A stretch of 31,397 bases of DNA, from the IMG/VR virus record IMGVR_UViG_3300017724_000040, positions 1-31,397 of that record; one strand, given 5' to 3'. Shown here one piece after another: positions 1-26,362 of this stretch; the first letter of the stretch is position 1; the number at the start of each line of letters is the position of its first letter. The notes below the pieces were generated by a model that worked only from the letters and a program-made list of their open reading frames with translations, was not told the origin of the DNA and did not search any database. Both the position numbers and the translations under genes were made by a program. This DNA is from a virus.

Positions 1-1700
1 GTGATTGTTACACTACCACTATCATGATTCATCCCACCAATAGTAACAGTATTACTATTATCTGTTGCAGTAACACCTAAACTAACAGATGATGAAATTG
101 TATATAGAGATGTTTTGTTTGTTATACCCTCAAAAATTTCCATATTAGTACTACCACCTACAAAAGATGCTATACTTCCACTTGAGTCTGCAGGGAATGT
201 ATGAGATTCATTAGTTAAGAAAGTAGTTACCGCATCAGCACCAGCAGCACCATCTTGTCCTTCATTACCACCATCTATTCCAAATATTTTTATTGAATCT
301 TCTAAAGAATCCTTAGATACTGTAATTGTTAAAGGAAGTTTTGTTTTATCTCCACTAACAGTTCCACTAAATGTAATAGTACCAGTAACTTGCCCACTTC
401 CATCTGTTACACTCGCTGAGAGTGTTGGGTCTGATAGAGTGCTACCATTCGCATCTACGATTGTAAAATCACCACCACCTACAGTACCACTTAGGTTTTG
501 TTGATTAATTGTGATTAAAATATCATCATCAATCGCAGTTGATGAAGATGCCGATGGGAATGAGAATACCTGTGAATCAGATGAAACTGTAAGAATCTTA
601 GCATCAGAACCTGCTAAACCAGCTGTTCCTTGTTTAGATTTAGTTAATGACATCGATTTAGAAAGTGATACACTTGCAGATGTTGCGGTTATTGTAACCG
701 AACCACTATCGTGTGTCATACCACTTATAGTTACTGTCTTTCCACTATCTGTGGCGGTTACACCCAATCCTCTTGATGAGGATATTGTATAATTGGCCGT
801 TGAGTTTGTTACTCCCTCAAATACTTCCATGTCGGTTGAACCACCAATGAAAGAAATAATAGTACCATCACTTTCTGCGGTAAAGGTATGGGATTCATTA
901 GTAAGGAATGTTGTTACGGCATCAGTACCATCTGCACCAGCTGTACCATCTGCCCCACCTTCTACTTTAAAGAGTTTGATTGAATCACTCAACCCATCTT
1001 TAGTTACCGAAATGGTTACTGGGAAGTTAGATTTAGTAGAATTTAATCCACCACTATTTAATGCACCTGTAAATGATATACTACCTGATGATATACCACT
1101 ATGTTTACCACTACTATTTGTTACACTATTATTATCGAATCCAAAATTCGTTACATTACCACCAGCAGTTGATATTGTGATATCAGAACTACCAATAGCA
1201 GCGTTTAAGTTTTGTTGGTTAAATGAGAATACAACTTCGGTTGGTGTTGCTGAAGTATCTGATGTATCATCAAATGCCATTACTTGTGAATCGATACTCG
1301 CAACTAATGTTTTTGCGGAAGTACCATCTAAACCAGCCGCACCATCACTACCATCTGCTCCATCAGAACCAGTTTGTCCTGCAATTGCTTTGGATAAAGA
1401 CATTGTTTTTGATAATGATGTACTTGCTGAGGTTGCTGTAATTATAATAGAACCACTATCGTGAGCCATCGATGTTACTGTAATTGTGTTTGCATCTATA
1501 GATGAACTTACTGATGTAGTTGAACTTCTACTATATGAATAAGATGTTGTTTTATCAGTTACCCCTTCAAACACAATCATATCTGTTGAACCACCAGTTA
1601 GAGATACAATACTCTTATCAGGATTAGCGGCAAATGTATGAGCTTCATTAGTTAAGAAAGCAGTTACCGCATCTACCCCATCTTGTCCTGATGTTCCATC
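1..1700 (-). repeat. Long in-frame repeated modules inside the tail-tip/fibre gene
   Basis: The phrase encoding DAVT(T/A)FLTNE(S/A)HTF starts near 207, 894 and 1644, so units are about 687 and 750 bp (229 and 250 codons). Each unit carries a collagen-like linker such as GADGTDAVT or GQDGVDAVT, a GGSTDMxVFEGVT-type segment, and an HDSGSVTI-type segment (3-29, about 690-716, about 1443-1470). The copies have diverged at both DNA and protein level. The array continues beyond the left edge. Confidence 0.8.
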
Positions 1701-4700
1701 ACTTCCACTCGCTCCTGCCTGAACTCCAAATAATGTTAATGAATCACTTGCGATTTGAGAACCACCAGATGCCACTTCGAATGTTTTTACTTCGTATGTA
1801 ACAGGTGTTGTTGCAGATGGTTGTTCGGAAGATTGGTCTGCTACAAATGTATTTGTTGTTCCTCTACTTCCTTGTAGTGAAGCTCCTTTGTAAAATTCGT
1901 AATATACAGTTCCAGCGTGATTTTGTTCGGTTGCGGTTAAAGTTATACTCTGTCCCGCTGGGTCTTGGTTACCTAATGAGTTAAACGTAATAACATAATT
2001 ACTAGCACCCAATGATACTGTTTTAGAAGTATTAGATGAAGTTGCCTCTGCAAGAGCAGAACCTACATCACTACCATCTGATAATTGTAATTGTCCTCTA
2101 ATTACTAAGGCCTCTGTTGTTGGATTCCAAACTAATTTATTACCCAATGAAAATTGAGAATCGGAATCAACATAAAATCCTGTATTTGAGTTTCCATATG
2201 AACCATTACCTGTAAATAACTTACCATCGGTCATTTTAATACCAGCAATAGAACCTGTGTTAGCGATTATACCACCTTGTAAGAATACATTATCTGTTGC
2301 TAAACCAAAACCTGGATTTGGATTTCCAAATACATAATCGGAATTAGCCAATCCACTTAAATCACCTAATCTCACTTTTAATTGTGCATCAAACAATCCA
2401 CTACCTGTTCTCTCAACAATATCCATATAAGGAGTTGCAGTATCTTTTGGGTTAGCGTTCATTTTAATATAACCACTACCACTTAGACCTGTTGATACAA
2501 TAACTTGTCCTTCATCATATGTTTGAGCTGATGATGCTAAATCACCTACAAACTCACCTTGTTGACCACTACCATATGCTCTTTGAACATATATCCTACC
2601 ATGTACTTCTTCGGCTCCCGAATTATCACCATCAATAGATGCTGATTCGATTAGTAGATATTCTGTTTGAAATCCAGTTCCATCTACTTTTTTAGCTAAT
2701 AAGATTTCACCTACAGCAAAACCACTCGCATTCTTAACAGACATTGTAGTTTGAGTTGATGTGATATTTGAACCTGTTAGGGTTGTAGCATTAGTAACCC
2801 ATAATTGTCCACCAACGGCGTTTACGGATTCTTTTTCAAAGGTAGTTGTTCTTAACGTACCTCTAATTCTAATATTCTCAAACTCTGCCGTTCCATTTCC
2901 TTCAGATGAAATCTTCCATCCCTTTACACCACTTGCGAAATCTCTTGTCTGTAAGATACCTTCTGGTCTCATTACTAAATTACTACCTTGTATAGTATTT
3001 GGTGTAATATCCCATCCACCTATAGATGCTGATTTAAACGATGCAAACCCTTGGTCTGTAATAGATGAACTGGCGTTTGTTAATGTTGATGGGTTACCAC
3101 CAATTGTTGCTGGAGTTTGGATACTGTTAGCAGATACTGAACCTAATATAGTTACATTATCAGTAATAGTACCACCTTGTAATAATACTTTTGATGCTGT
3201 TATGTTACCATCGGCCTTTAATCTTAATGATTCATCAGCTGATTTAATTTCTGATTCGTTTACCGTAAACCCTGCTATAGAAGCAGATGTAAACTTAGCA
3301 AAACCATCTTGTGTTATAGATGAGGATGCATTATTTATGTTTGATGGAGCTCCATCAATGATTGCAGGAGTAAATATTCTATCGGCAGATAATCCCGCTT
3401 TAATTACGGCATCGGCCCCAATTGTTAATAAATTGTTCTTAGGGTCTAAGTGAAATAATGATGAACTAATTTCTATGTTAGAATCAGAACCACTTATAAA
3501 TTGTGAGTTTTCTGTACCAATGAAAAACTTATCTGTTTTAACATCTAACAAACCACCATTTGCAGTTGTGAATATAAGGTGTCTTTCATCGTTATCACCG
3601 ATGAATTGCATACCAACACCTTCTAAGGTATCCACACCCATTTGTAGATTACCAGAACCACTATAGATTACAAATCCACCTGGAGCTTTTCCTAAAGATG
3701 CTGATGTTTGTCCTTCAAATCCCACAGAACGCATAAACCCACTACTCGCACCACCAAGTTCTATACCAGTTCCTACAGTATTAGATACGAAGATAGAACC
3801 ACTAATTAAGTTTTGTGAACCACCAATATAGGAATTACCACCTTGAAATACAAATGGGCCTATATTAGTTTCTGTTCTTGATATCTCACCAATTGAGTTA
3901 AGATATTGTATTTTTAATAATTTAGGGTCTTGTAAGTTTTCAGATGGCATTGGTATCTTCACACTAAATGAAGAACTAAATGGTACTGCCACTTCGTTTA
4001 ATAATTCAAACTCACCCGGTAACCCATCTGATTTTTGAAGTACTTTTATTTTATCAACCACACCAGCTATCGGGTCTACATTGTTAAACGAAATGTTTAC
4101 AAAAGAACGTTGATTTTCTGTAGCTACGTTTGAGCTAGTTCTAAAATACTCTATCTTATAGTCAGACTCTTCTACAGAATCATAAGTATGTTTTAACCCC
4201 TCTCTATTTTGAAAAGAAGCGGTGTATGGGTTATTTAACTGAACTGTTGTTGTGTTAGTTACTCTCTTAATAGAACCACTAAAGAAATTTAAATTAGTAG
4301 GTTCTTCTTTTGATTTAGGAGTAGCTGGAGTTGTAAAGTTTGATAAAATAATAGAACTATCTTGCATCTCTTGATTGAAAGTAGTACCATCTGTTATCTG
4401 TACGATTGGAGTCTTACCTTTAAATATGTATCTAACTTTACCTTCTTGAACGGTTAAATCTAAATCATTACCACTCTGTGGTTGATTTTGATAACTTTCA
4501 ATACTTTCAGATAATATTAGTGATGGAGTTATCCCATTTGAATTAAAGATAATAGGAGTTGTACTACTTCTATCTCTATCAACGTTTACTTTAGTCTGCC
4601 ATCTTACATTAAGTTTGTTTTTGTAAGAAGCTGGTACTGGTAACCCATCTACATCATTATTAGCAACACCAACTAATGTAATAGTAGCCTCACCGTTTGG

Positions 4701-5009
4701 AGTATTATCATCACCTTTATCATGATATACCCAAATAGAAATTACCCTACTCTTATCATCTTCGATATAATCGGGTATTTCATAATATATAGGGTTTCCG
4801 TTAGAATCCCTAACATCTATAAATATTTGTGTGTCTTCTTTTAGGTTAGTAGGGTGACCTGAAATCTTAATAAGGTTCTTACCCTTTGTAAGTATTTGTG
4901 GTACATCTGATACTCTAAAATAATTAGGCGATGATGATGTCTTATCATCAACTAATACTGCTATGTTATCAACTCTATCTCTAAAAGATTTTTTAAAAAC
5001 TAAAGGCAT
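1..5009 (-). CDS. Large tail-tip/tail-fibre structural protein with repeated modules (partial, C-terminus off the window)
   Basis: The frame opens at an ATG at 5009, preceded by a GGAG ribosome-binding site, and stays open to the left edge: about 1669 codons are visible and the stop lies outside the window. The N-terminus begins MPLVFKKSFRDRVDNIAVLV. The middle holds two related segments of about 80 residues with SADRIFTPAIIDG/SANSIQTPATIGG followed by NASSSIT and TSASIAGF/KSASIGGW (about 3010-3130 and 3265-3390). GGW-type segments of this sort occur in central fibre and tail-tip proteins of tailed phages. The C-terminal third is built of long modules with short collagen-like G-x-x-G stretches, the phrase DAVTTFLTNESHTF and the phrase HDSGSVTI. 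By content it is a virion adhesion or tail-tip protein. It follows the recombination nuclease gene with a 26-bp gap. The exact role (fibre, tip or host-recognition spike) is inferred, not shown. Confidence 0.85.
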   Translation of the reverse strand, partial: MPLVFKKSFRDRVDNIAVLVDDKTSSSPNYFRVSDVPQILTKGKNLIKISGHPTNLKEDTQIFIDVRDSNGNPIYYEIPDYIEDDKSRVISIWVYHDKGDDNTPNGEATITLVGVANNDVDGLPVPASYKNKLNVRWQTKVNVDRDRSSTTPIIFNSNGITPSLILSESIESYQNQPQSGNDLDLTVQEGKVRYIFKGKTPIVQITDGTTFNQEMQDSSIILSNFTTPATPKSKEEPTNLNFFSGSIKRVTNTTTVQLNNPYTASFQNREGLKHTYDSVEESDYKIEYFRTSSNVATENQRSFVNISFNNVDPIAGVVDKIKVLQKSDGLPGEFELLNEVAVPFSSSFSVKIPMPSENLQDPKLLKIQYLNSIGEISRTETNIGPFVFQGGNSYIGGSQNLISGSIFVSNTVGTGIELGGASSGFMRSVGFEGQTSASLGKAPGGFVIYSGSGNLQMGVDTLEGVGMQFIGDNDERHLIFTTANGGLLDVKTDKFFIGTENSQFISGSDSNIEISSSLFHLDPKNNLLTIGADAVIKAGLSADRIFTPAIIDGAPSNINNASSSITQDGFAKFTSASIAGFTVNESEIKSADESLRLKADGNITASKVLLQGGTITDNVTILGSVSANSIQTPATIGGNPSTLTNASSSITDQGFASFKSASIGGWDITPNTIQGSNLVMRPEGILQTRDFASGVKGWKISSEGNGTAEFENIRIRGTLRTTTFEKESVNAVGGQLWVTNATTLTGSNITSTQTTMSVKNASGFAVGEILLAKKVDGTGFQTEYLLIESASIDGDNSGAEEVHGRIYVQRAYGSGQQGEFVGDLASSAQTYDEGQVIVSTGLSGSGYIKMNANPKDTATPYMDIVERTGSGLFDAQLKVRLGDLSGLANSDYVFGNPNPGFGLATDNVFLQGGIIANTGSIAGIKMTDGKLFTGNGSYGNSNTGFYVDSDSQFSLGNKLVWNPTTEALVIRGQLQLSDGSDVGSALAEATSSNTSKTVSLGASNYVITFNSLGNQDPAGQSITLTATEQNHAGTVYYEFYKGASLQGSRGTTNTFVADQSSEQPSATTPVTYEVKTFEVASGGSQIASDSLTLFGVQAGASGSDGTSGQDGVDAVTAFLTNEAHTFAANPDKSIVSLTGGSTDMIVFEGVTDKTTSYSYSRSSTTSVSSSIDANTITVTSMAHDSGSIIITATSASTSLSKTMSLSKAIAGQTGSDGADGSDGAAGLDGTSAKTLVASIDSQVMAFDDTSDTSATPTEVVFSFNQQNLNAAIGSSDITISTAGGNVTNFGFDNNSVTNSSGKHSGISSGSISFTGALNSGGLNSTKSNFPVTISVTKDGLSDSIKLFKVEGGADGTAGADGTDAVTTFLTNESHTFTAESDGTIISFIGGSTDMEVFEGVTNSTANYTISSSRGLGVTATDSGKTVTISGMTHDSGSVTITATSASVSLSKSMSLTKSKQGTAGLAGSDAKILTVSSDSQVFSFPSASSSTAIDDDILITINQQNLSGTVGGGDFTIVDANGSTLSDPTLSASVTDGSGQVTGTITFSGTVSGDKTKLPLTITVSKDSLEDSIKIFGIDGGNEGQDGAAGADAVTTFLTNESHTFPADSSGSIASFVGGSTNMEIFEGITNKTSLYTISSSVSLGVTATDNSNTVTIGGMNHDSGSVTI

Positions 5010-5035: not shown

Positions 5036-8000
5036 CTATAAATATCTAATTGATGAAAATCCATCAACTTTTGTGATATCAATAATTTGGTCTACCATAT
5101 CTCTTGTTTTATCGATATGGGAAATTGTAACTATAAAATCAAATTGATTCTTTAGGTAATCGAATAATAAATATAGAGAATTAAAGTTATCCGTATCTAA
5201 AGAACCAAATCCTTCATCAATTGCTATGAAGTTTGGACGTGGTAAATTTGATACGTTTACTAATGCAGTTCTGATGGCCACCGATGAAATAAATTTCTCC
5301 ATACCACTTGTTAACTCTAATGGCCAAAACTCATCCGTTCCGTATGCAATAGATGAATTTATATTTCTACCATCTGTACTTAGTATGATTTGAAAATCTA
5401 CAATAGGTTGTAATATATTATTTATCTCTACTTCTAACTTAGGAAGTATGTCTGAAATCAACTGATATGGTATTCCATCTCTCTTTACACATTGTAGATA
5501 ATATTCATATCCTTCATATTTTTTTTCCATACCTTCCAACTTATCAATAGAATCATTTACAGTTTGAATAGTATTTTCAGCAATTCGTATATTACCATTA
5601 ATATCAATTATTTCATCATTTATTTCAAATATTACAGAATCAATTTCATCTAAATCTTCTTTATATTTAATAATTTGATTTTGTATTTTTTCATTATGCT
5701 CTACAGATTCCTTTTGTTCTAAAGATTTATCTATATCATCTACAACGGATTTTAGTTTTGTTTTTAACTCAGTATGTTCTAAATTACAAGATTTATTAGT
5801 TAGTTCTAACTTATCTTTTTTAATCTGTAGTGAGTCTTTTTTTGTTTTTAAATCCTGTATAGTATTTAATACACTCGTAACATCATATTTAAATTTATCT
5901 AAATTTAATGTTTCTATTTCGTTATTTTTAGATATAATTGAGTTTTTTAAAGTAATTATTTCTGATTCTAAAGATTGGGCTTTTTTTGCAAATGGTGTAT
6001 TTTGATTCTTTACACAATGTTCACAATCATCATCAAATGATAACGAACCAATTCCATCTAAATGTTCTGTAGCGTGTTCTAAATCAGAATTAAGTACCTT
6101 TATCTCAGAATCAATCACCTCTACTCTATTTACAATAGTCTCATATTGTAAGTGTTTTGTTTTCAATTCCAACAAATCATACGAATTATATTTAAATTCT
6201 ACTTCGTTGAGTTCATCGGTTAAATTACTTAACTCACCCGCATATCCAACACATTCTTCTGATTTTTCTGATATCTTAGTGGTTAATTCATTTTGTAATT
6301 GTATCAGAGATTCTGTATCTATTACTGTATTATCTACCGATTTTAACTTTGATGTTAAGTCATAAATATTAGAACGAGTTTTAACTCTCTTATCGTTATA
6401 TTCCTCAAATCTATTTTTTGTAGATTTTAGTATAATAGTATTCTCTTTTAATTCTTTCTTAGCATCTACCAACTTATCAGTAAAGTTTTGGTTCTTATAA
6501 TCTTTTAGTAGAGCACTTAACTCTCTAATCTCTTCGTTGGCGATTTGATACAATTCTTCAAATATATTCATATCTAAGAATTGGGCAAGTAGTTCTTTTT
6601 TTTCTTTCTGTGATTTCTCAATGAACCCACTACTGTTAGATTGGTTAGACATTGCGGTTAGTATAAAATCTTCATATGAACCAACATATTGTCTAATTAT
6701 AGAGTTAGTATCTCTTCTCTCTTCACCATTCAATGAATGAGTAACACCATCTACAATACAATAAAAATCAACATCAACCTTTACAGTTCCCCTCTTAGGT
6801 GATTTCTTACCAATCCTTTCAATAAAGTAATCAACGCCGTTTATTTCAAAATTTATCTTACAATTAAACTTTGATTTAGAATAGTTTAGTACATCCAATG
6901 CTTTATTTGTACGAGAACACTTATCAAATAAACAGAATGATAGAGCATCCCACAATGATGATTTACCACTTGCATTTGGAGCGAAGATTCCATAAGCACC
7001 TTTCATTTGACTGAAATCTATTACATTATTTTCACCATATGAAAACATATTAGAGAACTCAAATGTTTTTGGTTTCCATATAATATTCTTCAGACCTGGT
7101 CGAGCTCCTAACTTATTGTTGATATCTTGATTAATACCACCAATAATCTCTAATTCTTCTTTACCAACCACATATCTATCCGATAGATAACCTTCTATAA
7201 GTTGGTTTTGAAATGCGATATCTCTTACATTCTGAAGAACTATAGATGATGTTTGAGAACTATCCTTTGTATCAGCTAATACCTTCTGTATTGATACTTC
7301 TTGTACTTTTGTTTTAGATTTTAACTCAGATAATATTTTTTTTAATTGAGATTGAGATGTATCTTTTGCTCTAATTCTCATTCGAGATTTGTTTGGTATC
7401 TTTGGATTACCAATTACCTTACCATCCTCAACATCAATGGTCACATACCCATAATCGTTGTGAATTGGAACGAATTCCGATTCTTTGGTTTGAACATCCC
7501 ATACTAAGATTCCATGCTCAGGATACTTAGCTTCAGCATGATTCTGCATAATTGTAGAACCACAATACTTAATCGTACCCTCATCGTTTAGTGATTGATT
7601 TGGCACGTGAATATCACCTAATAGTACTAAATCGTATCCATCGAATGAATCTACTTTTACGTTTTTATTCTCTAATTGGAATCCGTATTCTGTTTTTACC
7701 TTATCGACAGGAGCATGATATAGAGCAATCTTATAATCACCATGTACCTCTTCAGATGGGATAATTTCCTTAGATTCCCCAAAAACCGATGAGTGTGAAA
7801 AGGAAATTCCACCCATCTTCCAAACTCCATCATCCTTCAGATAATGTAGATTAGGATGTCCTAATGCATTTACAATTGGTGATAACGCATCTAATCTATG
7901 TGGGTTATTTAAGTTAGCATCGTGGTTACCTGGTATCAAAATAGTTGGTAACATATCTGATAGAGATTTTAGAAATGTCTGTGTCATCTCTATAACCTCA

Positions 8001-8206
8001 GGAGTCATATCCGTTTTTGCGTGAACAATATCCCCACATAATACAATGATGGAATCATCTGTTTTTGTAGTGGAAATGTAATCATAAAGATGGGAAAACA
8101 CTTCCCTATATTCTTTATGTCTTTTTAAATTTCTGATATGTACATCAGCTATGTGGTAAATCTTTTTGATTGTACCATCATACTTAATTCTCTTCGATTT
8201 TCTCAT
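5036..8206 (-). CDS. Fused SbcD/gp47-SbcC/gp46-type recombination nuclease-ATPase
   Basis: This 1056-aa protein joins two subunits that are separate genes in T4 (47 and 46) and in E. coli (sbcD and sbcC). Residues 15-240 are a Mre11-type metallophosphoesterase: D21-x-H23, GD at 58-59, GNHD at 93-96, H164 and GDIH ending at H200. Residues 380-1056 are a Rad50/SbcC ATPase: Walker A in GIFAPNASGKSS (406-417), a long coiled coil, a CxxC zinc hook (C728, C731), a signature-like LTSGMEKF near 961-968, Walker B and D-loop in IAIDEGFGSLD near 992-1003, and the histidine switch TISHID. In this family the complex processes double-strand ends for recombination-dependent replication. Its start overlaps the primase stop by 4 bp (ATGA), so the two are probably translationally coupled. 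No frameshift separates the halves. Identity is very secure; the fusion is seen directly in the sequence. Confidence 0.97.
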   Translation of the reverse strand: MRKSKRIKYDGTIKKIYHIADVHIRNLKRHKEYREVFSHLYDYISTTKTDDSIIVLCGDIVHAKTDMTPEVIEMTQTFLKSLSDMLPTILIPGNHDANLNNPHRLDALSPIVNALGHPNLHYLKDDGVWKMGGISFSHSSVFGESKEIIPSEEVHGDYKIALYHAPVDKVKTEYGFQLENKNVKVDSFDGYDLVLLGDIHVPNQSLNDEGTIKYCGSTIMQNHAEAKYPEHGILVWDVQTKESEFVPIHNDYGYVTIDVEDGKVIGNPKIPNKSRMRIRAKDTSQSQLKKILSELKSKTKVQEVSIQKVLADTKDSSQTSSIVLQNVRDIAFQNQLIEGYLSDRYVVGKEELEIIGGINQDINNKLGARPGLKNIIWKPKTFEFSNMFSYGENNVIDFSQMKGAYGIFAPNASGKSSLWDALSFCLFDKCSRTNKALDVLNYSKSKFNCKINFEINGVDYFIERIGKKSPKRGTVKVDVDFYCIVDGVTHSLNGEERRDTNSIIRQYVGSYEDFILTAMSNQSNSSGFIEKSQKEKKELLAQFLDMNIFEELYQIANEEIRELSALLKDYKNQNFTDKLVDAKKELKENTIILKSTKNRFEEYNDKRVKTRSNIYDLTSKLKSVDNTVIDTESLIQLQNELTTKISEKSEECVGYAGELSNLTDELNEVEFKYNSYDLLELKTKHLQYETIVNRVEVIDSEIKVLNSDLEHATEHLDGIGSLSFDDDCEHCVKNQNTPFAKKAQSLESEIITLKNSIISKNNEIETLNLDKFKYDVTSVLNTIQDLKTKKDSLQIKKDKLELTNKSCNLEHTELKTKLKSVVDDIDKSLEQKESVEHNEKIQNQIIKYKEDLDEIDSVIFEINDEIIDINGNIRIAENTIQTVNDSIDKLEGMEKKYEGYEYYLQCVKRDGIPYQLISDILPKLEVEINNILQPIVDFQIILSTDGRNINSSIAYGTDEFWPLELTSGMEKFISSVAIRTALVNVSNLPRPNFIAIDEGFGSLDTDNFNSLYLLFDYLKNQFDFIVTISHIDKTRDMVDQIIDITKVDGFSSIRYL
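5037..5045 (-). promoter_or_regulatory. ATATTTATA motif upstream of the tail-tip gene (candidate promoter element)
   Basis: The coding strand reads ATATTTATA 27 nt before the ATG at 5009, overlapping the stop codon of the nuclease gene. The same motif recurs in other gaps (11503, 13420, 13488, 13506, 27299). Function as a phage -10-like element is inferred from recurrence and position only. Confidence 0.35.
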
Positions 8207-9135
8207 ACACCTAATAACTTATACTCCATTAACTTCCTTAGTGAAAGTAATTCGGTATTTTCTATCTTTTCATTAATATTTTTAAAACCCATATCTGATG
8301 GGTCTGAATCTTTTAGTTCAACGATGTGAACTCCCACTCCGTTATTCATAAGGGATTCTGCGAATCGGAGTGAGTTCTTAAAAGCATCTGAATCTAATGC
8401 TAGATATACACTTTTAACACCCTTACTAATTATTTTCTTTTGTAGTTCCGATTGTGGTGATTTACCAAACAATGGGATACTATTCATTCTAACTGCTATT
8501 GCATCAAATACTCCTTCACATATTACAATTGGTAAATCCCAATTAATAAACATCTCAAATCCCACCACATCTTTAGATACATCTGGATTCTTATGTTTAA
8601 ATGTCGTATCGTAGAAACTTCTACCTACAAAATAATTTAACATACCATTCTCATCATACGATGGAACTATGATTTTATGTTTATACATACCCTCTTCACA
8701 ATACCCCATTTGATACTTTAAAATTTCCGAAGGTGATACCCCCCTTCTGTCAAGATAAGACAATGCGTGTTTTCTAATTACCGATGAGGATGGTTTCCAC
8801 AATGGGATATATTCTTTAGGTAATTGAACTACCTTAGATTCTTCGGTAGTTGAATCTGTTTTGTATCTATACTTTCTACTGAATATGGAATTATGTTCAT
8901 CCCAAATCTCCTTAGATACTTTAAGTTTTCTAAATAGAGAACGAATTGATTTACCTTTCTCATCCGATATCCAACAATGCCAAGGGTTATCTGCATTAGA
9001 GTTTAACTTTATGTTTATCTCCAATTTAGGTTTATGATGATTCACAAATGGTGACCAAAAAGCATAGTTATCACCACTTGTTTTCTTAGATTTCCCTAAG
9101 ACAGATTCTAGTAAAGAGAGTAGTCTTTCTTCCAT
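8203..9135 (-). CDS. DnaG-like DNA primase (TOPRIM) with degenerate zinc ribbon
   Basis: This 310-aa protein would make RNA primers for lagging-strand synthesis. Residues 25-70 have the shape of a CHC2 zinc ribbon (SPFVNHHKPKLEIN, then PWHCWISDEKGKSIRSLF), but of the usual metal ligands only C54 remains. The sequence YLDRRGVSPSEILKYQMGY (128-146) and the segment around KIIVPSYDENG match the start of the primase catalytic core. The TOPRIM motifs are complete: E207-G with D211 in CEGVFDAIA, and DSD at 248-250. It is shorter than bacterial DnaG and has no helicase domain, so a separate helicase gene is expected elsewhere. No Shine-Dalgarno sequence is visible before the ATG. The endonuclease gene lies 30 bp upstream and the recombination nuclease overlaps downstream. 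A non-primase TOPRIM protein is less likely because of the RGV and PSYDENG core. Confidence 0.88.
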   Translation of the reverse strand: MEERLLSLLESVLGKSKKTSGDNYAFWSPFVNHHKPKLEINIKLNSNADNPWHCWISDEKGKSIRSLFRKLKVSKEIWDEHNSIFSRKYRYKTDSTTEESKVVQLPKEYIPLWKPSSSVIRKHALSYLDRRGVSPSEILKYQMGYCEEGMYKHKIIVPSYDENGMLNYFVGRSFYDTTFKHKNPDVSKDVVGFEMFINWDLPIVICEGVFDAIAVRMNSIPLFGKSPQSELQKKIISKGVKSVYLALDSDAFKNSLRFAESLMNNGVGVHIVELKDSDPSDMGFKNINEKIENTELLSLRKLMEYKLLGV

Positions 9136-9165: not shown

Positions 9166-9591
9166 TTAACCAAAGAATTTTACTTTTTCTTTTTCATCTA
9201 TCCATTCTTGTGGGATTTCTTTTTTAGCCCATTTGAATCCGTTCTTTTCACACCATTGTGCATATGTGGTTTTAGAACCTTTGTATATTTTTCCATTTGG
9301 AGATTGTAGTACGAACCTTAAATCCATATCAGGATTCTGTTCTTTTATTAATAAATGTTTCTTTCTATCTTCAGGTAAGAACCATCCTTTTGATTCTATA
9401 AAGATATTATTAGGTAATCTGAAGTCAGGTTTGTAAGAATGAGTAGTTGCTGGAATTGTATATGATACTTCATGCTCTTCATACTCACCATCAATACCTT
9501 GTGATTTAAGCTGCTCATCTATGCGGGTTTCCAATCCACTTTTATGTCCCTTCATCTTTTGGATGTGAGACCAGTTTCCTTTTTTATTCAT
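9166..9591 (-). CDS. Endonuclease I, T7 gp3-type Holliday junction resolvase
   Basis: This 141-aa protein aligns by eye over nearly its full length with T7 endonuclease I. Shared phrases include SGLE, EYEE, the segment IPATTHSYKPDFRLPNNIF (compare T7 IPASNHTYTPDFLLPNGIF), DRKKHLL and IPQEWI. The four T7 catalytic residues (E20, D55, E65, K67) correspond to E21, D56, E66 and K68 here. The family resolves branched DNA and debranches replicated phage DNA before packaging; in T7 it also degrades host DNA. T4 uses an unrelated enzyme (gp49, endonuclease VII) for this job. It is the first gene of the replication cassette, 12 bp after the end of the 625-aa structural gene on the map. No ribosome-binding site is evident, the leader being AAAAATAAAAAGTT before the ATG. 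Confidence 0.95.
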   Translation of the reverse strand: MNKKGNWSHIQKMKGHKSGLETRIDEQLKSQGIDGEYEEHEVSYTIPATTHSYKPDFRLPNNIFIESKGWFLPEDRKKHLLIKEQNPDMDLRFVLQSPNGKIYKGSKTTYAQWCEKNGFKWAKKEIPQEWIDEKEKVKFFG

Positions 9592-9603: not shown

Positions 9604-11481
9604 TTAAAAACCTTGTGGATTCCAAGTAAAGTTTCCATCTCGTCTTTTTTGTAACTTAATATTATGTTCCGTAGCTGGTTGTAGTGAACCTGTTCCAGGT
9701 GCACCAAATGGGCCATCCATATCCAATCTAACTTTAATAGTTATATCAACATCGTTTCTGTTTTGAATGGCAGAACCTAATTTTCCAATTGCAAGTAAAT
9801 CCCCTTGCTTATTATATAATCCTATTTCTGTAAAGTATGGAGCAAAATCTGAACCTGTTACGAATGGTTTTAAGAACATTTCTCTAATATCATTATTTTT
9901 TCTTAATGATACATTTGTACTAATATTAAATTCAGAAGCACCAACTTCACACATTACAACGGTTTCATATAATTTTTTAGTAGATTTCCACTTTGCAGTA
10001 AATCCAAGTCTACTTGAGTCGTAATCCCAATTTCCACCACCTACTAATATGTGTTTGTATTTTGGACGTGGGTCTGATACAACTACGATTCCATGATTGT
10101 AAAACACTTCACCTACAATATCTTCTTGATATGCGGAACCTGTTAGGTAATCGTTAGATGATAACCCTTTTATCTCAGCTGAGGTTAATCCTTTTCTATA
10201 GTATCTAAATTCATCTAATGAACCAGATAGTGTATTAAATGATGATATCTCTGCTTCTTTACTTAAAGATTTGGGAGTTGTACCGTACCTACCTAAATCA
10301 GAAATGTACCTAGAACCTAATAAAATATCATACTCATTCCAAATTTCTTTTACTTTTAAAGATGAAGAAGCTTCTTTAATACCATCTACCCACAGTTCTA
10401 AATTAGAACCCGTTTTGTTAAAACAGATGTGATGTGAATTACCATCATTTACTTTTGTAGATGAGGTTATTTCTGTTATTTTAGTACCACCACCAATACT
10501 TGCAACTACCTTACCATTTGAATTAAAATTATTTTGATTGAAAACTTTTAAATCATATGGAAATATAGGAGTATTTAGATTACGTTGTCTATTTAAAGGT
10601 TCTCCTTTTTTAGTTGTGTAATCTTCTCTAAAAGTTCCATTTTTACTTATAAGCCAATTATAATCAGATGTTACATCAGATTGTGATACTGGCATATCAG
10701 TCCATATAGATATTGAATAATCATTTCCTTTTACAGGTGAATATCTTTTTTTATCATCTATCTTAATATATGAATTTGAACCATTAAATGATACTTTAGT
10801 TCCTGAATATACAGAGGATGTACCAGTCGTTTTAATTCCTGATTGATAGTTTAACTCTCTACCTACTGCGTGATTTTGATAACCACTTCTATCTTCTATC
10901 TTTGTATCAAATGAGCAGGAACGAGGTGTTACTTCATCGTTAAATCCCCAATATCCCATCAAATCACCAAACGGAACATATGAACCTGTGTTTAACGATT
11001 TATCAATTATGTAACCATGATACTCATCAATCTTTCTATCGTACAACTCAACATACTCTACAAAATCATCTTGAGATTTATCTTCAATTATCACACTTCC
11101 AGGTAAAATACCATCACCTAATCTATTATGTGGTATTGATATTATAGAAGCGGATGCGAATAAATCTCTTTCATTGTTAGGTCTATGTTTAAAGAATGTT
11201 TGATTTAATCCAGACCACACTACCTTCTGCTCCTTACTACCTAAGAACGGAGTTGAGTTAGAATTTAGATTATCCAATTGAGTATTATCAGATACATTAG
11301 CACCTGCTATTGATTTTGATAAAGGAACTAATTCTTTATATAAAGGCGATACTCCTTTAAGTATGGATGTTTGATATATATCACTTCTGTAATCTATATC
11401 AGTTACTATCCACCTTTTATGGGAATTGAAAGGGTAGAGTTGTTGTCCACCGCCATTAATTGGTTTTAGTGCTTCTGCCAT
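9604..11481 (-). CDS. Virion protein with LamG/concanavalin-like domain
   Basis: This is a 625-aa predicted virion surface protein. Residues about 175-440 look like a LamG-type jelly roll: MGYWGFND, DRSGYQNHAVG, VSFNGSNSYIKI, a central DGNSHHICFNKTGSNLELWVDG, and LSGSLDEFRYYRKGLTSAEI. Such domains bind glycans or act as structural sandwiches on phage tails. Residues about 452-605 (from VGEVFYNHGIVVV to VDITIKVRLDMDG) are clearly related to the C-terminus of the 362-aa protein encoded just upstream, including TEIGLYNKQGDLLAIGKL against TSVGLFNSSQELLAVAKL. The start is supported by AAGGA 9 nt before the ATG. A terminator and the 129-bp gap before it suggest it has its own promoter. Exact location in the virion is unknown. 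Confidence 0.8.
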   Translation of the reverse strand: MAEALKPINGGGQQLYPFNSHKRWIVTDIDYRSDIYQTSILKGVSPLYKELVPLSKSIAGANVSDNTQLDNLNSNSTPFLGSKEQKVVWSGLNQTFFKHRPNNERDLFASASIISIPHNRLGDGILPGSVIIEDKSQDDFVEYVELYDRKIDEYHGYIIDKSLNTGSYVPFGDLMGYWGFNDEVTPRSCSFDTKIEDRSGYQNHAVGRELNYQSGIKTTGTSSVYSGTKVSFNGSNSYIKIDDKKRYSPVKGNDYSISIWTDMPVSQSDVTSDYNWLISKNGTFREDYTTKKGEPLNRQRNLNTPIFPYDLKVFNQNNFNSNGKVVASIGGGTKITEITSSTKVNDGNSHHICFNKTGSNLELWVDGIKEASSSLKVKEIWNEYDILLGSRYISDLGRYGTTPKSLSKEAEISSFNTLSGSLDEFRYYRKGLTSAEIKGLSSNDYLTGSAYQEDIVGEVFYNHGIVVVSDPRPKYKHILVGGGNWDYDSSRLGFTAKWKSTKKLYETVVMCEVGASEFNISTNVSLRKNNDIREMFLKPFVTGSDFAPYFTEIGLYNKQGDLLAIGKLGSAIQNRNDVDITIKVRLDMDGPFGAPGTGSLQPATEHNIKLQKRRDGNFTWNPQGF

Positions 11482-13534: not shown

Positions 13535-14881
13535 TTAATTTCCTCTTCTAAATCTTTCAGAACCTCTTTTTCTTCTTTTAATAAAATCTTCTTCTGTTGG
13601 TGTACGTTTAGCTAAACCACGTCTTATATTTACTAATTTATTTAATTTATTGTAATCTTTAAGAGGTTTATTGTCTTTAGGTACAATTATTAAAATATCA
13701 TCTGGTTCTGTTTGAGCTTTTCTATCAAAATCAGATTCTTCACTTTCAACAATATCTCTATGTGGTACAATTTTTCTACCTAATTGTTTTTCAAATTTAG
13801 CGATTTCTCTACGTTTAGTTTGAACATCAGTTTCACCCCTAACATCAGGATTACGTTCCTGTTTCTCTTTCTGTTCTAATAATACATCACCTTCAAAAAA
13901 AGTTTGAACTTCTGATTTTCTTAATCTATTTACTTTAAATTTAGTTTCCTCAGCTTTTCTTACTCTTTCATTCTTTAATCTTTCAATTTTTCTTTTTTGT
14001 AACTTAGCCTTTTCTTTTCTAATAACTTCTTTATCTTGTTGTATCTTTCGTCTATCTTTAATTCTCTGACTTTCGATTTCTTTTAATTCAGTTTCAGATT
14101 GTTTCTTTTTACCTGTAGTATTAATTTTACTAAACTCAGGATACTTTTCTTGCATTAATAACTGAAACTCTTTTTTTCTCTGAAGTATATCTGAATCAAA
14201 TAATTCTCTTCTTTCAGTTTCATCTTCCAACGCATCATCTCTTTCACTTCTTCTTTCTTCTTCTATCTCTCTACGTTTAAGTTCTTCTTTTTCTAAACGG
14301 ATTCGTTCTTCCTCATCTTCTAATTCAGATGCCTTAACAACATCAACAGGTACTTCTTTTGTAACTACCTGCTCTTTATCTGTTATCTTATCAATTAAAT
14401 CATCAGATGATGTTCTATCACTATCATCAATCTTATCAGTTCCAGTAATGTTTTGTGCAGTATCAACTTCCTTTTCTACTGTTTTGATTATATCATCAAT
14501 TTCCTCTTCTGTTGTTTGAGGTTTTACAGGAGATAATGGTTTTGTATTTTCTTTTAAAGAATCTTTTAAAATTTCGTTTGTTGCATCAGAAACATTATCA
14601 ATAGGTTTATCTATACCTTTAGGAACATCTGTAGTTATAATTTCATTTAACGTTACATCCTCAACAAAATCACTACCCTTTGGCTCACTTACCTTAGATG
14701 GTTCAATTGGTTTAGTTTTACTAACTTCAGGCTCTTTTATAGCAGGTGGAAGTGGTGGTGAAACTCTTGGTGGAGTTACTACCGTTTCTTCCGTTACTGG
14801 TGGAGCTGGATTACGTGGTGGAACAGGTGGATTAACTCTACCTCTTCTACCTTTACCTTTACCTCTTCGTGTCTTAGCCAT
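13535..14881 (-). CDS. Highly charged, probably disordered/coiled-coil protein of unknown function
   Basis: This is a 448-aa protein with three compositional zones. Residues 1-15 are very basic (KTRRGKGKGRRGR). Residues 16-60 are proline-rich. Residues 60-190 are acidic and Thr/Ser-rich (EEEIDDIIKTVEKEVDT). Residues 190-370 are a Glu/Arg/Lys helix likely to form a coiled coil (EEERIRLEKEELKRREIEEE). The end is basic again (RRKRGSERFRRGN). No enzyme motif is visible. It is linked to the 1837-aa gene by a TAATG stop-start overlap and preceded by a strong AAGGAG. The giant protein also ends in a Glu/Arg-rich basic tail, so the two may interact or share an origin. A scaffold, tape-like or internal virion role is possible, but nothing in the sequence decides this. 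Confidence 0.75.
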   Translation of the reverse strand: MAKTRRGKGKGRRGRVNPPVPPRNPAPPVTEETVVTPPRVSPPLPPAIKEPEVSKTKPIEPSKVSEPKGSDFVEDVTLNEIITTDVPKGIDKPIDNVSDATNEILKDSLKENTKPLSPVKPQTTEEEIDDIIKTVEKEVDTAQNITGTDKIDDSDRTSSDDLIDKITDKEQVVTKEVPVDVVKASELEDEEERIRLEKEELKRREIEEERRSERDDALEDETERRELFDSDILQRKKEFQLLMQEKYPEFSKINTTGKKKQSETELKEIESQRIKDRRKIQQDKEVIRKEKAKLQKRKIERLKNERVRKAEETKFKVNRLRKSEVQTFFEGDVLLEQKEKQERNPDVRGETDVQTKRREIAKFEKQLGRKIVPHRDIVESEESDFDRKAQTEPDDILIIVPKDNKPLKDYNKLNKLVNIRRGLAKRTPTEEDFIKRRKRGSERFRRGN

Positions 14882-17800
14882 TAGTCACGTCTCCTTTTTG
14901 TTCTTCTATTTCGTTTCTCATTTTGTTTTTTACTTACTGGAATCTCTAATCGTCTTAACACCCTCTTATCGATTTCTTCTTCTTCTATAAAAGATTCTCT
15001 TTCTTCCATTGGAAGTTCGTTTAATTTTTGAATTAATTCAGAAGTTTGTTCTTTTTCAATTTCTTCTTTTCTCTCAACATTAATTGGTTGACCATCTAAG
15101 AATTTAACTTCTTCTGGTTCTTCTGGTTGAATGAATTTTTCTTCTTCTCGTACTTCTTTTTCTTCGATTTCTTTTTTAACAACAATTGGGTCGTTTACAA
15201 CATCAAATTCATCTTGTCTTGCTGATTCTCTATTACTAATATCTTCTGAGTTTTGTAATCTTAAATCAAATTCAGCTCTTCGTGAGTTTTCTATTTGTTG
15301 TATTCTTGCAATTTCTCTACGGAACTTTTGAACTTCCGCTCTGTACTCCAATTCTCTTTGATATCTAATTTCTTCAGATATTTTTAAATCATCAACATTA
15401 ATGGTAGCGATTCCTGTATTAGTATCTACATCTAAGTTTCCATCTTCAGCTGTTTGTGATGTATTGATTAGTACATTTGGGTCAGCTTCAAATATTTCTA
15501 TTACAGGTTTACCATCAGGAGTTTGTGTGGAATTTGTTGTCAATGAATCAGAACTCATCTTACAACCTAAATATCTTAAATTCTCAACTGCCAATGGTAG
15601 ATTATCTGTTGATACCTGTGATGGGGATAGAGATGATGAATATGATAATCCCATAGAAGCGGATACGGAAGAACTATAGAAGTAATTTGTAGTTCTTGCA
15701 TATTGTGCATTTCGTTGGTTAATTATCGATGTTCCTAGTGGGTTGTAATTCCAACTACCATTTGAACCAGTAATCCAACCAACACCATATCCCACATCAC
15801 CACCTTCTTTTGGTATTAGTATATCAAACTTGTATGAAGATGGTTTATATGGAAGTTTTGCTCGAATTAATCCTCTTTCTTCTAAATCACTTTTTTCTAC
15901 AAATATAGATTGAGTAACTCTAAATGATGTATTTAGTAAATAAAAATTACCATTTAAATCTTTTGGAGTAGACCATATATTTTGTTGGTCTTGTAACTGA
16001 TATGTACCTGACATACTTCTCTCAGTATCTACAACAATCGATGTTTTATGGGTTACATAATCTGCGGATTGTAGTAATGATTGTGTTAATGGAATTTCAG
16101 TATTGTGAGTTAAATATTCGGCTGATGAAGTAACATTTTGATTTAAATCAATTAATGTTTCATGTGTTAGATATTCGGCCGATTCTTTTATTGTATTTAA
16201 ATCAAGTCGTAATCCATACGTTAAGTATTCAGACTCAAAACTAGCAGTTGCTCTTGGTATGTATTTGCTTTTAAAATTATCGTAAGTAGGATATGTCATT
16301 ATAAACTTAGGTGATACAGTACCACTTACTGTTGTGTTATAAGTAGGACACTCCATAAGAATATCAGGAGATGCCGTACCACTTATCGTTGTGTTATAAG
16401 TTGGAACAGTCCAATCAGTTACGCTAGGTGAACCATATAATGATGCACTCAATGGAGTAATAAACATCTGTGGAACTTTATCTATAGGATTAACCGTAAC
16501 CTCATACATAGGTTCGGTCTTAACAACTTTAACTTTAGATTTAACTTTAGGTCTTTCTAAGATATGTGGTTCAATTAAAATACCTGAGTTGTAATCAACC
16601 CTAGCTGGTACAGTTTGTCTAATCTGTTCAAATACAGAGAAATCATATCTTGCCAATATATCGATAGTACTATTGATTAAGTTCTTAGTACTATACTTTT
16701 TAAATACCTGTCTTCTTAAATAATCTAATTGTTCGTTTTGTTCTGTAAAACCTTCTCTACCATCTGGGTCTCCAATATAATCATCTATATCAAAATAACC
16801 TGTGTGGTTGTATATATCTTCATTGTACATTTTTGTAGCCGATAGATAAACACCCAATACATTGGAATCATTTGGAGCAGAATCAAACTTTGAAGTTTCT
16901 TTTCTTTCATCAACATCTAACATTCCTCTTAATCTATTTGGCTCAACCCTTATCTTGTTGTTCATAATGTTGTTTGCTCCTGCCGATGGTACTTTTGTAT
17001 GGTACTCTTCGGTTACACCTCTTAAATCATCTGATTCAAAGTTGTGTAATGATGCGGATAATATCTGTCCATTTAATAGTGTGGATATTTTTTGATTAGG
17101 ATGTTGTGATGGTTGTGAATCAGAAACATCTACACTCTTTAGTCTTGAATCAGGTAAAAATCTAAACTTTAAATCAAAGTAAGATGAGGTTTCTGAATTA
17201 CCATGATATGATTCTCTTGCAAGAGTGTGTTCATCAATAACAATATCTTTTAATGGGTTTGCCCAATATCTTAATTCTTGTATAGAACCACTTAGATACT
17301 CAGTATTACCCCACAATGATGGAGTATTATCTGTTGGGAAACTCTTACCTACAGTTAGTGTACCACTACCAGTCCACGCCGCGTTGTAAGATGGTTCGGT
17401 TGAACCTGTAATAAAGATACTTGCAGATTTATCTACAATAATATTATCTCTACGACTTCTACGGTAAATTAATTTATATTCATTATCTTGTGTAATATCA
17501 TCTACTGATTTTTCTCTTTGAACAATCAATGTTCCCATCTTAGAATCAAATAAACTAACATTATTAATAGATGCTGATTTATAACCACTACTACCACTTA
17601 GGTAAAAATGTATATTACCTTTCTTACCAGTTTTTGCGGTAGATAGAGATTCGTATAATACTCCGAAGTTTTTATCTTTATTTAAAACAGCAGTTGTTCT
17701 ATTCTTATTTTGTTGAACTTGTAACTCAATCGTATCAATTGGGTTAGGGTCTCTGTTCAAATATGTGTTAGGGTCAATATCATTTACTTTATCAAATGGA

Positions 17801-20394
17801 ACTTCCATATAATTATCAGTATCAAATCTTAAATGATATACAAATCTTTCATGTTCCCAAAATTGTCGCTTATCTTCTATTACAGGCCCACCATATTCTC
17901 TGATTGATAAGAATGTTTGTGGAATACCATATGTAGATATTAATGCCTTTACAGCTCTAGCAGAACCTTTTGATTTAAGAAGATATGGTATATTGTTTAC
18001 AATTCTTCTCCAAATTTCATTTGTATATTGTTCTACTGGTTTGGCCGCCAATGAACCAGATTGTTGTGGGTTACCGTACTTATCTGTACCTAAAGCATAG
18101 CTCCAAAGTTCTTCCCTATCCTTACCATGTGTTAGTTTCCAACCCATTGATTTTGCCACATCATAAAGTAAGTTGTTCGGCATACCATCGTATGGATGTT
18201 CTTCTCTACTATTAATAGATGTTAACTTTTTAACATACGCCCATGTGATATCAAAATGATGACCTATCATGTCAATAAACAATAAGTAATCAGCATTAAG
18301 TGTATCTTCACTTATTGAAGCTGGTATTGTTTTGGTTAACCTTGCATCATTCATAGAATCAAAGTAACTAGCAGAATCAATTAACCCATTATAATGTGAT
18401 ATGGCCAATGATGATGTTACAGAATATAAATTTACTGGTTGTGCACTATACTTCGGCCAAGGGCTAATTGTAAATGCAGAAGAACTATAGTGTGTATATA
18501 GTGATGAAGATGGTTCGTTATACATCCAACGTTCCCATCCATCCATACCACTAACTACGTTATTTTTTCTTACTATAGATTGTGATATGTTTGTTAGTGC
18601 CTCAGTTCCACTTACGGATTCTAAAGTTTTTATTCTACTTTCATACCCCTCTATCAATTCAACCTTATATTTAAAGTTATTTACTCTTTCTACTGCAGAT
18701 GAATAATGTACAAATTCTGAGAAGTCAGAATAGTTTACATTTATATTATTTTCAAATGATGAACTTATGTATTTATCTACTATCTGTTGAGATGTTGATA
18801 GGTTTGTATCTAATAAATCATTCCAACTTCTTAAATCAGTACCTACAGACTTACCATAAGTACCCATATCAATTTTAAAGTTAGGTTCGGAAAAGTTATC
18901 TTCTACTAATTTTTTAGAGGTTGGATATACTAATAGTTTTTCTATGTAAGAATCTCTTACTAGTCTCTCAATACGTGGTGTTTTGTTTTGTAAATCACCT
19001 CTTAATGGTTTGTACAATTTTACTGTAACCGTATTAAGTTTTACATCTGGTTCTTCCTCTGTACCAGTGTTCTTAAAATTTGGATTATTATATTGTACTT
19101 CAGATGATATAGGAACTCCTCTAAGTAATTTAGTGTAATCAGAATTAGGTCTTATTGGAAATCCCTTATCGTCATTACCAAATTCAAAATATTGTTGTTC
19201 TAATTTATCAAAAACAGGTATCCATTTTAATTCTTCGTTATCATTAAAATCTAATACAAATTTTGAACCCCTACCTGTAGTTCTAAATTTTTTACTTATT
19301 TTCTGTGGTGAGATTGATACAAGTAATCTATCATTTAGACTATCTTTAAAAGAGGCTCTCTTATCTGAACCTTTATTTAAAATCGCACCATCTGAAACTA
19401 TAGAGGGGTCTTTTACCTGTGGATTTTTAATAATTTTAGATGTCTTGTTCGATACTTCTGTATTTGTAACATTTGTTTTACTACTACCAGCTACTGATTT
19501 TGTAGATGTTTTTGAGGTTTTTCCAAGAGCAGCATCCATAATTGCCTTACCAGCATCGGTTTGTAAAGCTTTCCCTAAATCACTATCATCAGTTGTTTTG
19601 AGTGGATTATCAAACGATACTATACTTGGTGTTTGATTTGCATCTTCTACCTCTTCTACTATAATAGCACCTTCTACTTCAGAAATTTCTTCATCATCTA
19701 TATATACTTCACACCAATACCCATCTAAATTTTGCATTGGATAGAATCTAGTTCTAATACCCTGATAGATATCTGTTGGGAAATCAACTTCTTCTAACTG
19801 ATACCCTTCTCTTTCATTTAAACTAAAATCAAACTGTGTAATTGCAGCTAAATCATTGTTTCCAAAATTTAAAACATACTGAATGTGTTCTGTATTACCA
19901 TCTCTAAGTTCGGGTAACCCTAACCCATCTGAATATAGATTTTCGATTGCCTTCAACCCTTCGTAAGAGTCTACAGTACCATCTTTTTCGGAATCAATTA
20001 CTAATTGTAATTCACTCGCATCTGCAGATATATTTTCTATTTTTAACTTATCTGTTTGTTTATCTAAGAAATTGTAAACTACAGAAAAATTACCTTTTGA
20101 TATATTTGATTGTCTTACATCTTTTTCAGGTGTTAGTAAAATATCATACGGTTGGCTGTTGTTACTATCAGCTTTGGTGTTTATTTCATATCTAAGTGAT
20201 TTATCATTAGATTTTAATAGATTTTCACCTGAGTATATGTGATATTCTTGAGCTATTTGTAAATCACCCTCTTTTAAATCCGTTTGTATAGATTCAATTC
20301 TCTCTAAATCTTCAATAGAATATATAGCAGGAGCATCTACTGGAGATTTGGATGTTACTACATCAGTTCCTTTTATGTAAATATCTAATGCCAT
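14881..20394 (-). CDS. Giant baseplate/tail protein: P2 gpI-like region, LamG-like domain, tandem repeats, charged tail
   Basis: This is an 1837-aa protein in the position that gpI-type wedge proteins occupy after gp25 and gp6 homologues. Residues about 690-830 contain GWKLTHGKDREELW and NNIPYLLKSKGSARAVKALI followed by STYGIP, the pattern of P2 gpI-like tail proteins. Residues about 850-1060 look LamG-like (YHLRFDTDNYMEVPF, GTLTVGKSFP, LSGSIQELRYWANPLKDIVI). Residues about 1328-1453 carry two tandem repeat families (PTYNTT-SGT and SAEYLTH). Near 1590-1650 is AVENLRYLGCKMSSDS with TPDGKPVIEIFEADPN. From about 1670 to the end it is a Glu/Arg-rich coiled coil ending NRRTKRRRD. It would combine a wedge function with surface display. 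The start overlaps the 646-aa gene's stop (TAATG), with GGGAG upstream. Structural nature is secure; the gpI/gp7 equivalence is an inference. Confidence 0.8.
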   Translation of the reverse strand: MALDIYIKGTDVVTSKSPVDAPAIYSIEDLERIESIQTDLKEGDLQIAQEYHIYSGENLLKSNDKSLRYEINTKADSNNSQPYDILLTPEKDVRQSNISKGNFSVVYNFLDKQTDKLKIENISADASELQLVIDSEKDGTVDSYEGLKAIENLYSDGLGLPELRDGNTEHIQYVLNFGNNDLAAITQFDFSLNEREGYQLEEVDFPTDIYQGIRTRFYPMQNLDGYWCEVYIDDEEISEVEGAIIVEEVEDANQTPSIVSFDNPLKTTDDSDLGKALQTDAGKAIMDAALGKTSKTSTKSVAGSSKTNVTNTEVSNKTSKIIKNPQVKDPSIVSDGAILNKGSDKRASFKDSLNDRLLVSISPQKISKKFRTTGRGSKFVLDFNDNEELKWIPVFDKLEQQYFEFGNDDKGFPIRPNSDYTKLLRGVPISSEVQYNNPNFKNTGTEEEPDVKLNTVTVKLYKPLRGDLQNKTPRIERLVRDSYIEKLLVYPTSKKLVEDNFSEPNFKIDMGTYGKSVGTDLRSWNDLLDTNLSTSQQIVDKYISSSFENNINVNYSDFSEFVHYSSAVERVNNFKYKVELIEGYESRIKTLESVSGTEALTNISQSIVRKNNVVSGMDGWERWMYNEPSSSLYTHYSSSAFTISPWPKYSAQPVNLYSVTSSLAISHYNGLIDSASYFDSMNDARLTKTIPASISEDTLNADYLLFIDMIGHHFDITWAYVKKLTSINSREEHPYDGMPNNLLYDVAKSMGWKLTHGKDREELWSYALGTDKYGNPQQSGSLAAKPVEQYTNEIWRRIVNNIPYLLKSKGSARAVKALISTYGIPQTFLSIREYGGPVIEDKRQFWEHERFVYHLRFDTDNYMEVPFDKVNDIDPNTYLNRDPNPIDTIELQVQQNKNRTTAVLNKDKNFGVLYESLSTAKTGKKGNIHFYLSGSSGYKSASINNVSLFDSKMGTLIVQREKSVDDITQDNEYKLIYRRSRRDNIIVDKSASIFITGSTEPSYNAAWTGSGTLTVGKSFPTDNTPSLWGNTEYLSGSIQELRYWANPLKDIVIDEHTLARESYHGNSETSSYFDLKFRFLPDSRLKSVDVSDSQPSQHPNQKISTLLNGQILSASLHNFESDDLRGVTEEYHTKVPSAGANNIMNNKIRVEPNRLRGMLDVDERKETSKFDSAPNDSNVLGVYLSATKMYNEDIYNHTGYFDIDDYIGDPDGREGFTEQNEQLDYLRRQVFKKYSTKNLINSTIDILARYDFSVFEQIRQTVPARVDYNSGILIEPHILERPKVKSKVKVVKTEPMYEVTVNPIDKVPQMFITPLSASLYGSPSVTDWTVPTYNTTISGTASPDILMECPTYNTTVSGTVSPKFIMTYPTYDNFKSKYIPRATASFESEYLTYGLRLDLNTIKESAEYLTHETLIDLNQNVTSSAEYLTHNTEIPLTQSLLQSADYVTHKTSIVVDTERSMSGTYQLQDQQNIWSTPKDLNGNFYLLNTSFRVTQSIFVEKSDLEERGLIRAKLPYKPSSYKFDILIPKEGGDVGYGVGWITGSNGSWNYNPLGTSIINQRNAQYARTTNYFYSSSVSASMGLSYSSSLSPSQVSTDNLPLAVENLRYLGCKMSSDSLTTNSTQTPDGKPVIEIFEADPNVLINTSQTAEDGNLDVDTNTGIATINVDDLKISEEIRYQRELEYRAEVQKFRREIARIQQIENSRRAEFDLRLQNSEDISNRESARQDEFDVVNDPIVVKKEIEEKEVREEEKFIQPEEPEEVKFLDGQPINVERKEEIEKEQTSELIQKLNELPMEERESFIEEEEIDKRVLRRLEIPVSKKQNEKRNRRTKRRRD
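16033..16236 (-). repeat. Tandem SAEYLTH repeats inside the giant tail protein
   Basis: Four consecutive in-frame units of about 17-19 residues encode SFESEYLTYGLRLDLN, SAEYLTHETLIDLNQN, SAEYLTHNTEIPLTQS and SADYVTHKTSIVVDTE. Similarity is visible at protein level, with (S/E)(A/S)(E/D)Y(L/V)T(H/Y) followed by a T/L-x-I/L-x-L pattern. Boundaries are approximate. Confidence 0.8.
16270..16410 (-). repeat. Tandem PTYNTT-SGT repeats inside the giant tail protein
   Basis: Two units of about 19-20 residues, PTYNTTISGTASPDILMEC and PTYNTTVSGTVSPKFIMTY, are followed by a truncated third, PTYDNFKS. They sit directly upstream in the protein of the SAEYLTH repeats. At DNA level the segment encoding YNTT(I/V)SGT is close to identical in both copies. 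Confidence 0.8.
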
Positions 20395-26354: not shown

Positions 26355-26362
26355 TTAAGTTC

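Follow-up and report, generated by a model that had tools for sequence, protein, structure and literature searches.

The window, as we call the whole stretch of viral DNA analysed here (31,397 nt), carries on its minus strand a gene whose 1056-aa product comprises a full phosphoesterase, a capping domain, a helix-loop-helix (HLH), an ABC ATPase and a CxxC hook. We regard this protein, with a probability of about 0.85, as an R555-like Mre11-Rad50 (SbcDC) of a large contractile-tailed phage, which would process DNA ends as gp46/gp47 do in T4. A broad family of aquatic phages shares this conserved fusion. The fusion, its GDxH motif and its neighbour set were already published in 2011, and the gene in the window is a good example of this known type; more unusual than the fusion itself are relatives in which the gene is broken.

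Domain architecture of the fusion gene

The fusion gene, its parts and its two upstream neighbours are the following:

5036..8206, minus strand: Mre11-Rad50 (SbcD-SbcC) fusion gene, 1056 aa, uninterrupted ORF with Pfam and PHROG matches
7457..8164, minus strand: Mre11/SbcD phosphoesterase domain, about residues 15-250 (Pfam Metallophos, motif table, structure model), with metal-site residues D21, H23, D59, N94, H95, H164, D198 and H200
7607..7618, minus strand: GDIH, residues 197-200, a GHxH motif in which Asp replaces the first His
7568..7606, minus strand: post-GDIH loop or hairpin, residues 201-213, closed in the window and the break site in relatives
7283..7453, minus strand: capping domain, about residues 252-308 (structure model)
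7109..7219, minus strand: HLH, residues 330-366 (structure model; HLH role after PMC3175470)
6572..7081, minus strand: Rad50/SbcC N-terminal ATPase lobe, Walker A APNASGKS at residues 409-416 (Pfam, structure model)
5486..6568, minus strand: coiled coil, about residues 547-907 (structure model)
6014..6025, minus strand: zinc hook CEHC, residues 728-731, both Cys invariant in 71 sequences
5039..5473, minus strand: Rad50/SbcC C-terminal lobe (motif table, structure model, profile matches)
8203..9135, minus strand: 310-aa primase-like gene, sharing 4 nt (ATGA) with the fusion start; phrog_47, E 5.9e-29
9166..9591, minus strand: T7-type endonuclease I (Holliday junction resolvase), 141 aa; PF05367, E 6.4e-54

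The initial annotation had described a complete SbcD-type nuclease in frame with a complete SbcC-type ATPase, and the domain matches bear this out, as do the single-ORF loci described below. Pfam Metallophos matches residues 15-202 (E 4.5e-11), SMC_N matches residues 382-1048 (E 9.8e-10, slightly below the curated cut-off) and phrog_77, 'SbcC-like subunit of palindrome specific endonuclease', matches residues 284-1054 (E 6.9e-45); E. coli SbcC, archaeal Rad50 and Thermotoga Mre11 chains were also among the profile matches. The Mre11/Rad50 phosphoesterase motifs DxH, GD, GNH[DE], H and GHxH are all present, the last one as GDIH, and the Rad50-type ATPase is in two halves separated by the coiled coil with its CxxC hook, the C-terminal lobe holding the signature LTSGMEKF, the Walker B FIAIDE, the D-loop GSLD and the H-loop SHI. 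The residues that had been named beforehand (D21, H23, D59, GNHD 93-96, H164, GDIH 197-200, C728-E-H-C731 and LTSGMEKF) were all correct.

An AlphaFold2 model of the fusion, built with 71 homologues, reached a mean pLDDT of 82.6 and a pTM of 0.45, a low value that is expected with a long coiled coil, and the relative placement of the domains is not to be read from it; an earlier run with 20 close homologues (pLDDT 58) was set aside. Along the chain the model orders the phosphoesterase, the capping domain, the two-helix HLH, the ATPase N lobe from residue 376, a coiled coil of about 360 residues with the CEHC hook near its midpoint, and the C lobe. The capping and HLH regions were assigned by position and secondary structure, and the linker 310-321 is of low confidence. 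A capping region is thus present in what had been called a linker between nuclease and ATPase, but the model resolves this region into a capping domain plus HLH with short flexible stretches only. The ABC signature does read LTSGMEKF as first noted, yet it is less odd than suggested, since T4 gp46 reads FSEGEK and not LSGGE.

Foldseek against the PDB returned a Mre11-Rad50 complex as best match, followed by SbcCD. Against viral structures, the top matches were full-length giant-virus proteins of about 1200-1390 aa (Tupanvirus with E 2.3e-75, Harvfovirus, Yasminevirus and Catovirus), several of which carry the annotation DNA repair or DNA repair exonuclease, and Tenacibaculum phage pT24 was also among the best.

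Spread of the fusion and its relation to known systems

Scanning IMG/VR with the window protein gave 35 loci, and scanning it with the alignment gave at least 582 confirmed stretches encoding relatives, the best 80 of which were kept. The window itself and three phage records from GenBank are counted in the resulting set of 118 loci, and some contigs turned up in both scans; the whole fusion is a single ORF without stop or frameshift in 103 of the 118 (90 distinct relatives), 13 are cut by contig ends only and two (L028 and L038) are interrupted. GDIH is invariant in 91/91 aligned sequences, and the distance from GDIH to Walker A is 205-229 residues where measurable in this alignment; every sequence tabulated from it retains GNH[DE] and the signature's SGME core. 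In the alignment of 71 sequences, D21, H23, D59, N94, H95, H164 and H200 are invariant. The 735-kb phage LR756501.1 encodes a 1202-aa fusion (L039:3998-7606) that is 24% identical to that of the window. A scan of 84,980 bacterial and archaeal genomes found only seven loci, all on MAG contigs below 20 kb and most likely phage DNA.

A survey showing the fusion to be common in phages had been named beforehand as what would remove its novelty and leave the domain call, and this is what was found: the fusion is common and the domain call is unaffected. Besides its abundance in IMG/VR, the claim of novelty is contradicted by Yoshida, Claverie and Ogata (2011; PMC3175470), who described Mre11/Rad50 fusions in Mimivirus (R555), bacteria, plasmids, eukaryotes and Bacillus phage 0305phi8-36, with Asp242 of R555 at the position of His206 in the P. 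furiosus motif His206/His208. According to the same authors, R555-like sequences are abundant in viral fractions of aquatic metagenomes, many of them argued to be phage, and phage primases and T7-type endonuclease homologues lie on R555-like metagenomic scaffolds (PMC3175470). Judged by this published description, the window gene shares with the R555 type the Mre11-first order with both proteins in one frame, the HLH, the Asp at the His206 position and the primase and T7 endonuclease I neighbours, and the best structural matches of its model are mimivirus-group proteins of fusion length; R555 has 1351 aa, as against 1056 aa in the window.

T4 gp46/gp47 have the same domains and the same expected role, and the profile of the fusions matches gp46, but these are two separate genes and gp47 keeps GHFH; a pairwise comparison of the fusion with gp47 gave no significant match. 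E. coli SbcCD and archaeal and eukaryotic Mre11-Rad50 are alike in fold and motifs but consist of two chains, and the motif of their family is GHxH, not GDxH. In Microcystis phage Mel-JY01 the same fusion (WWT39521.1) is 39.5% identical over 99% of the length and has a DNA primase-like gene upstream, but a GIY-YIG gene upstream takes the place of the window's endonuclease I, and the protein is annotated by its ATPase half only, as 'AAA domain containing protein'. A label such as 'AAA domain protein' or 'SbcC' alone hides the nuclease half of the fusion.

Neighbouring genes and predicted function

Homologues of the primase-like gene and of endonuclease I are found in 90 and 81, respectively, of the 91 loci with more than 2.5 kb of upstream DNA. 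Adjoining endonuclease I, the window encodes a laminin-G/concanavalin-A-like lectin domain protein (9604-11481; homologues in 80/91 loci), possibly a tail or adhesion protein. Baseplate-wedge genes at 24375-26806, whose best matches lie in Mel-JY01 and in Flavobacterium phages, indicate that the window comes from a contractile-tailed phage. Very large proteins occupy the baseplate stretch (14881-20394, 1837 aa; 20394-22334, 646 aa; 22334-24364, 676 aa; 3-5009, >1669 aa), with no Pfam match for any of the four and a single, weak PHROG match (phrog_33923, for 3-5009). An HD-domain-like phosphohydrolase gene (30275-31039; phrog_28876, Pfam HD slightly below the cut-off) adjoins a spanin-like gene (29995-30273).

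Nine records of 96-190 kb, eight from IMG/VR plus Mel-JY01, were searched for separate copies of the two proteins. None held a second AAA_23 match, a model that gave no score at all in G002, which has the intact fusion, and in G005, which has a split gene. The fusion was also the only Metallophos match in the intact-fusion records of this size, except for G008 with two further phosphoesterase ORFs, one of them below the cut-off. The huge-phage records (484 and 735 kb) contain further phosphoesterases, and further AAA_23 proteins occur in the 735-kb record. Separate gp46/gp47 are therefore likely, and only likely, to be absent from the fusion-bearing relatives, because the completeness of the records is not certified and AAA_23 failed to detect the fusion in G002. 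A RecA-family recombinase was found in 8/8 records searched, and gp46/gp47 of T4 are annotated as necessary both for recombination and for degrading host DNA. In the 96-190 kb relatives no SbcC-type gene other than the fusion was detected, a further phosphoesterase is rare, and a RecA-type recombinase is encoded as well, so that the fusion most likely fills the place of gp46/gp47 in a single chain. Together with the primase and endonuclease I neighbours, this suggests that a one-chain SbcCD resects ends for recombination-dependent replication.

Two fusion chains would dimerise through their Mre11 parts and their ATP-bound Rad50 heads, giving the usual M2R2 body with M and R fused. The HLH would dock on the root of the coiled coil, and the fusion would thereby fix a 1:1 stoichiometry and limit the relative motion of both parts. 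ATP binding and hydrolysis would gate DNA ends to the nuclease site, where the complex may open hairpins or resect ends, and the phage recombinase would take over the resulting 3' single strand for repair and recombination-dependent replication, as with gp46/gp47 in T4. In GDIH, the Asp is probably still a metal ligand. We know of no activity for any fused Mre11-Rad50 member.

The window is an unfinished metagenomic contig, in which two adjacent genes might have been linked by an assembly join, a chimera or a read-through artefact, but the probability of this is negligible: independent contigs with the same full-length ORF rule it out, the 103 loci coming from many independent assemblies and the isolated phage Mel-JY01 carrying a 1067-aa ORF of the same fusion. 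The change from GHxH to GDxH could instead mean that nuclease activity has been lost or narrowed and that the protein is mainly an ATP-driven DNA tether or end-binding clamp, given that the first His is replaced by Asp in every aligned sequence and in Mimivirus R555. We find this improbable, as the seven other invariant residues of the phosphoesterase argue for a kept metal site and Asp commonly serves as a metal ligand.

Somewhat less improbable, though still unlikely, is that the main role is host-DNA breakdown and not recombination-dependent replication. The annotation of gp46/gp47 covers both tasks and a T7-type endonuclease I lies beside the fusion, but the primase-like gene directly upstream with its 4-nt overlap, and RecA in all relatives searched, speak for replication and recombination; the two roles are not mutually exclusive. 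A role in a defence system was dropped, since the fusion belongs to a core locus of the phage whose neighbouring genes are fixed.

Relatives broken after GDIH

In the two interrupted loci, an ORF splits the gene immediately behind GDIH, and the ends of the two N-terminal pieces are similar to each other (score reached by 0/100,000 shuffles). An initial pattern search for more broken copies returned L028 only; a pattern drawn from both N-piece tails found five more in IMG/VR. The break sites are the following:

L028:6589-7590: 169-kb contig, HNH/NUMOD3-like ORF (E 0.007, below the cut-off)
L038:3556-4645: 484-kb phage LR756508.1, TnsA-like ORF (E 5.8e-6)
L172:11948-12440: Vsr/DUF559-like ORF (weak matches)
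L169:7413-7676: no ORF, 106-nt spacer
L180:10034-10579: cut by contig end, C-piece outside the sequence
L166:14777-14878: cut by contig end, C-piece outside the sequence
L188, minus strand: stop and restart 2 nt apart

The N-piece tail resembles TLQEYSYEELEIDExxLDKYLKEGWE, with a net charge of -5 to -11, and the C-piece head resembles MNKKIKIKRIKPAIKY, with a net charge of +5 to +7 (only +1 in L038). An in-frame version, with LQEYSCEELVVNESKLTTKKIKHIKPAIKYSGS in place of the short post-GDIH loop, occurs in L079, L162, L168 and L187 (L079 and L162 being the same contig) and also in L199-L201, and retains both strands as a 38-residue stretch, as against about 17 residues in relatives. Relatives that share up to 88% identity with the L172 C-piece have the short closed loop. 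In the tree, the copies with both pieces (L028, L038, L172 and L188) fall in four places, each nearest to closed copies, which argues for at least four separate broken lineages.

A group I or II intron at the break was rejected, with no Rfam match in L028, L038, L169, L172, L180 and L188 and with spacers in L169 and L188 that are too short. A split intein was likewise rejected, as most tails have no Cys/Ser start and the heads have no terminal Asn with a Cys/Ser/Thr junction. Searches for the tail peptide elsewhere gave no more than chance hits among 50,697 phage records and none at other sites of the 11 records examined. A comparable layout is known from the Aeh1 nrdA/mobE gene-in-pieces, where the split enzyme is functional (PMC2988022). 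Tail and head carry opposite charges there as well, but with a basic tail (+6) and an acidic head (-9, its start placed by eye), the reverse of the broken fusions, and the NrdA-a tail is not similar in sequence to theirs.

We give slightly better than even odds to a scheme in which a mobile element splits Mre11-Rad50 within the nuclease domain, right after GDIH, and brings its own acidic tail and basic head, which would pair as a beta-hairpin so that the pieces reassemble. Unrelated endonuclease-like ORFs (HNH/NUMOD3-like, TnsA-like and Vsr/DUF559-like) would use the same site across lineages, some copies being split without an endonuclease and others in frame with a scar. Here we infer both the order of events and the function given to tail and head.

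In a large group of aquatic phages with contractile tails, the fusion family seems to provide the only SbcCD. At about 1050 aa, a single-chain Mre11-Rad50 is a compact model for the ATP gating of a nuclease, and the 90 diverse homologues aligned, with their invariant GDIH, make the role of this motif at the metal open to test. The broken relatives provide a natural series (closed, split with an endonuclease, split without one, joined with a scar) in which the entry of a homing endonuclease into an active site without death of the phage can be studied. If the scheme is true, phage recombination nucleases would pass through fusion, fission and re-fusion.
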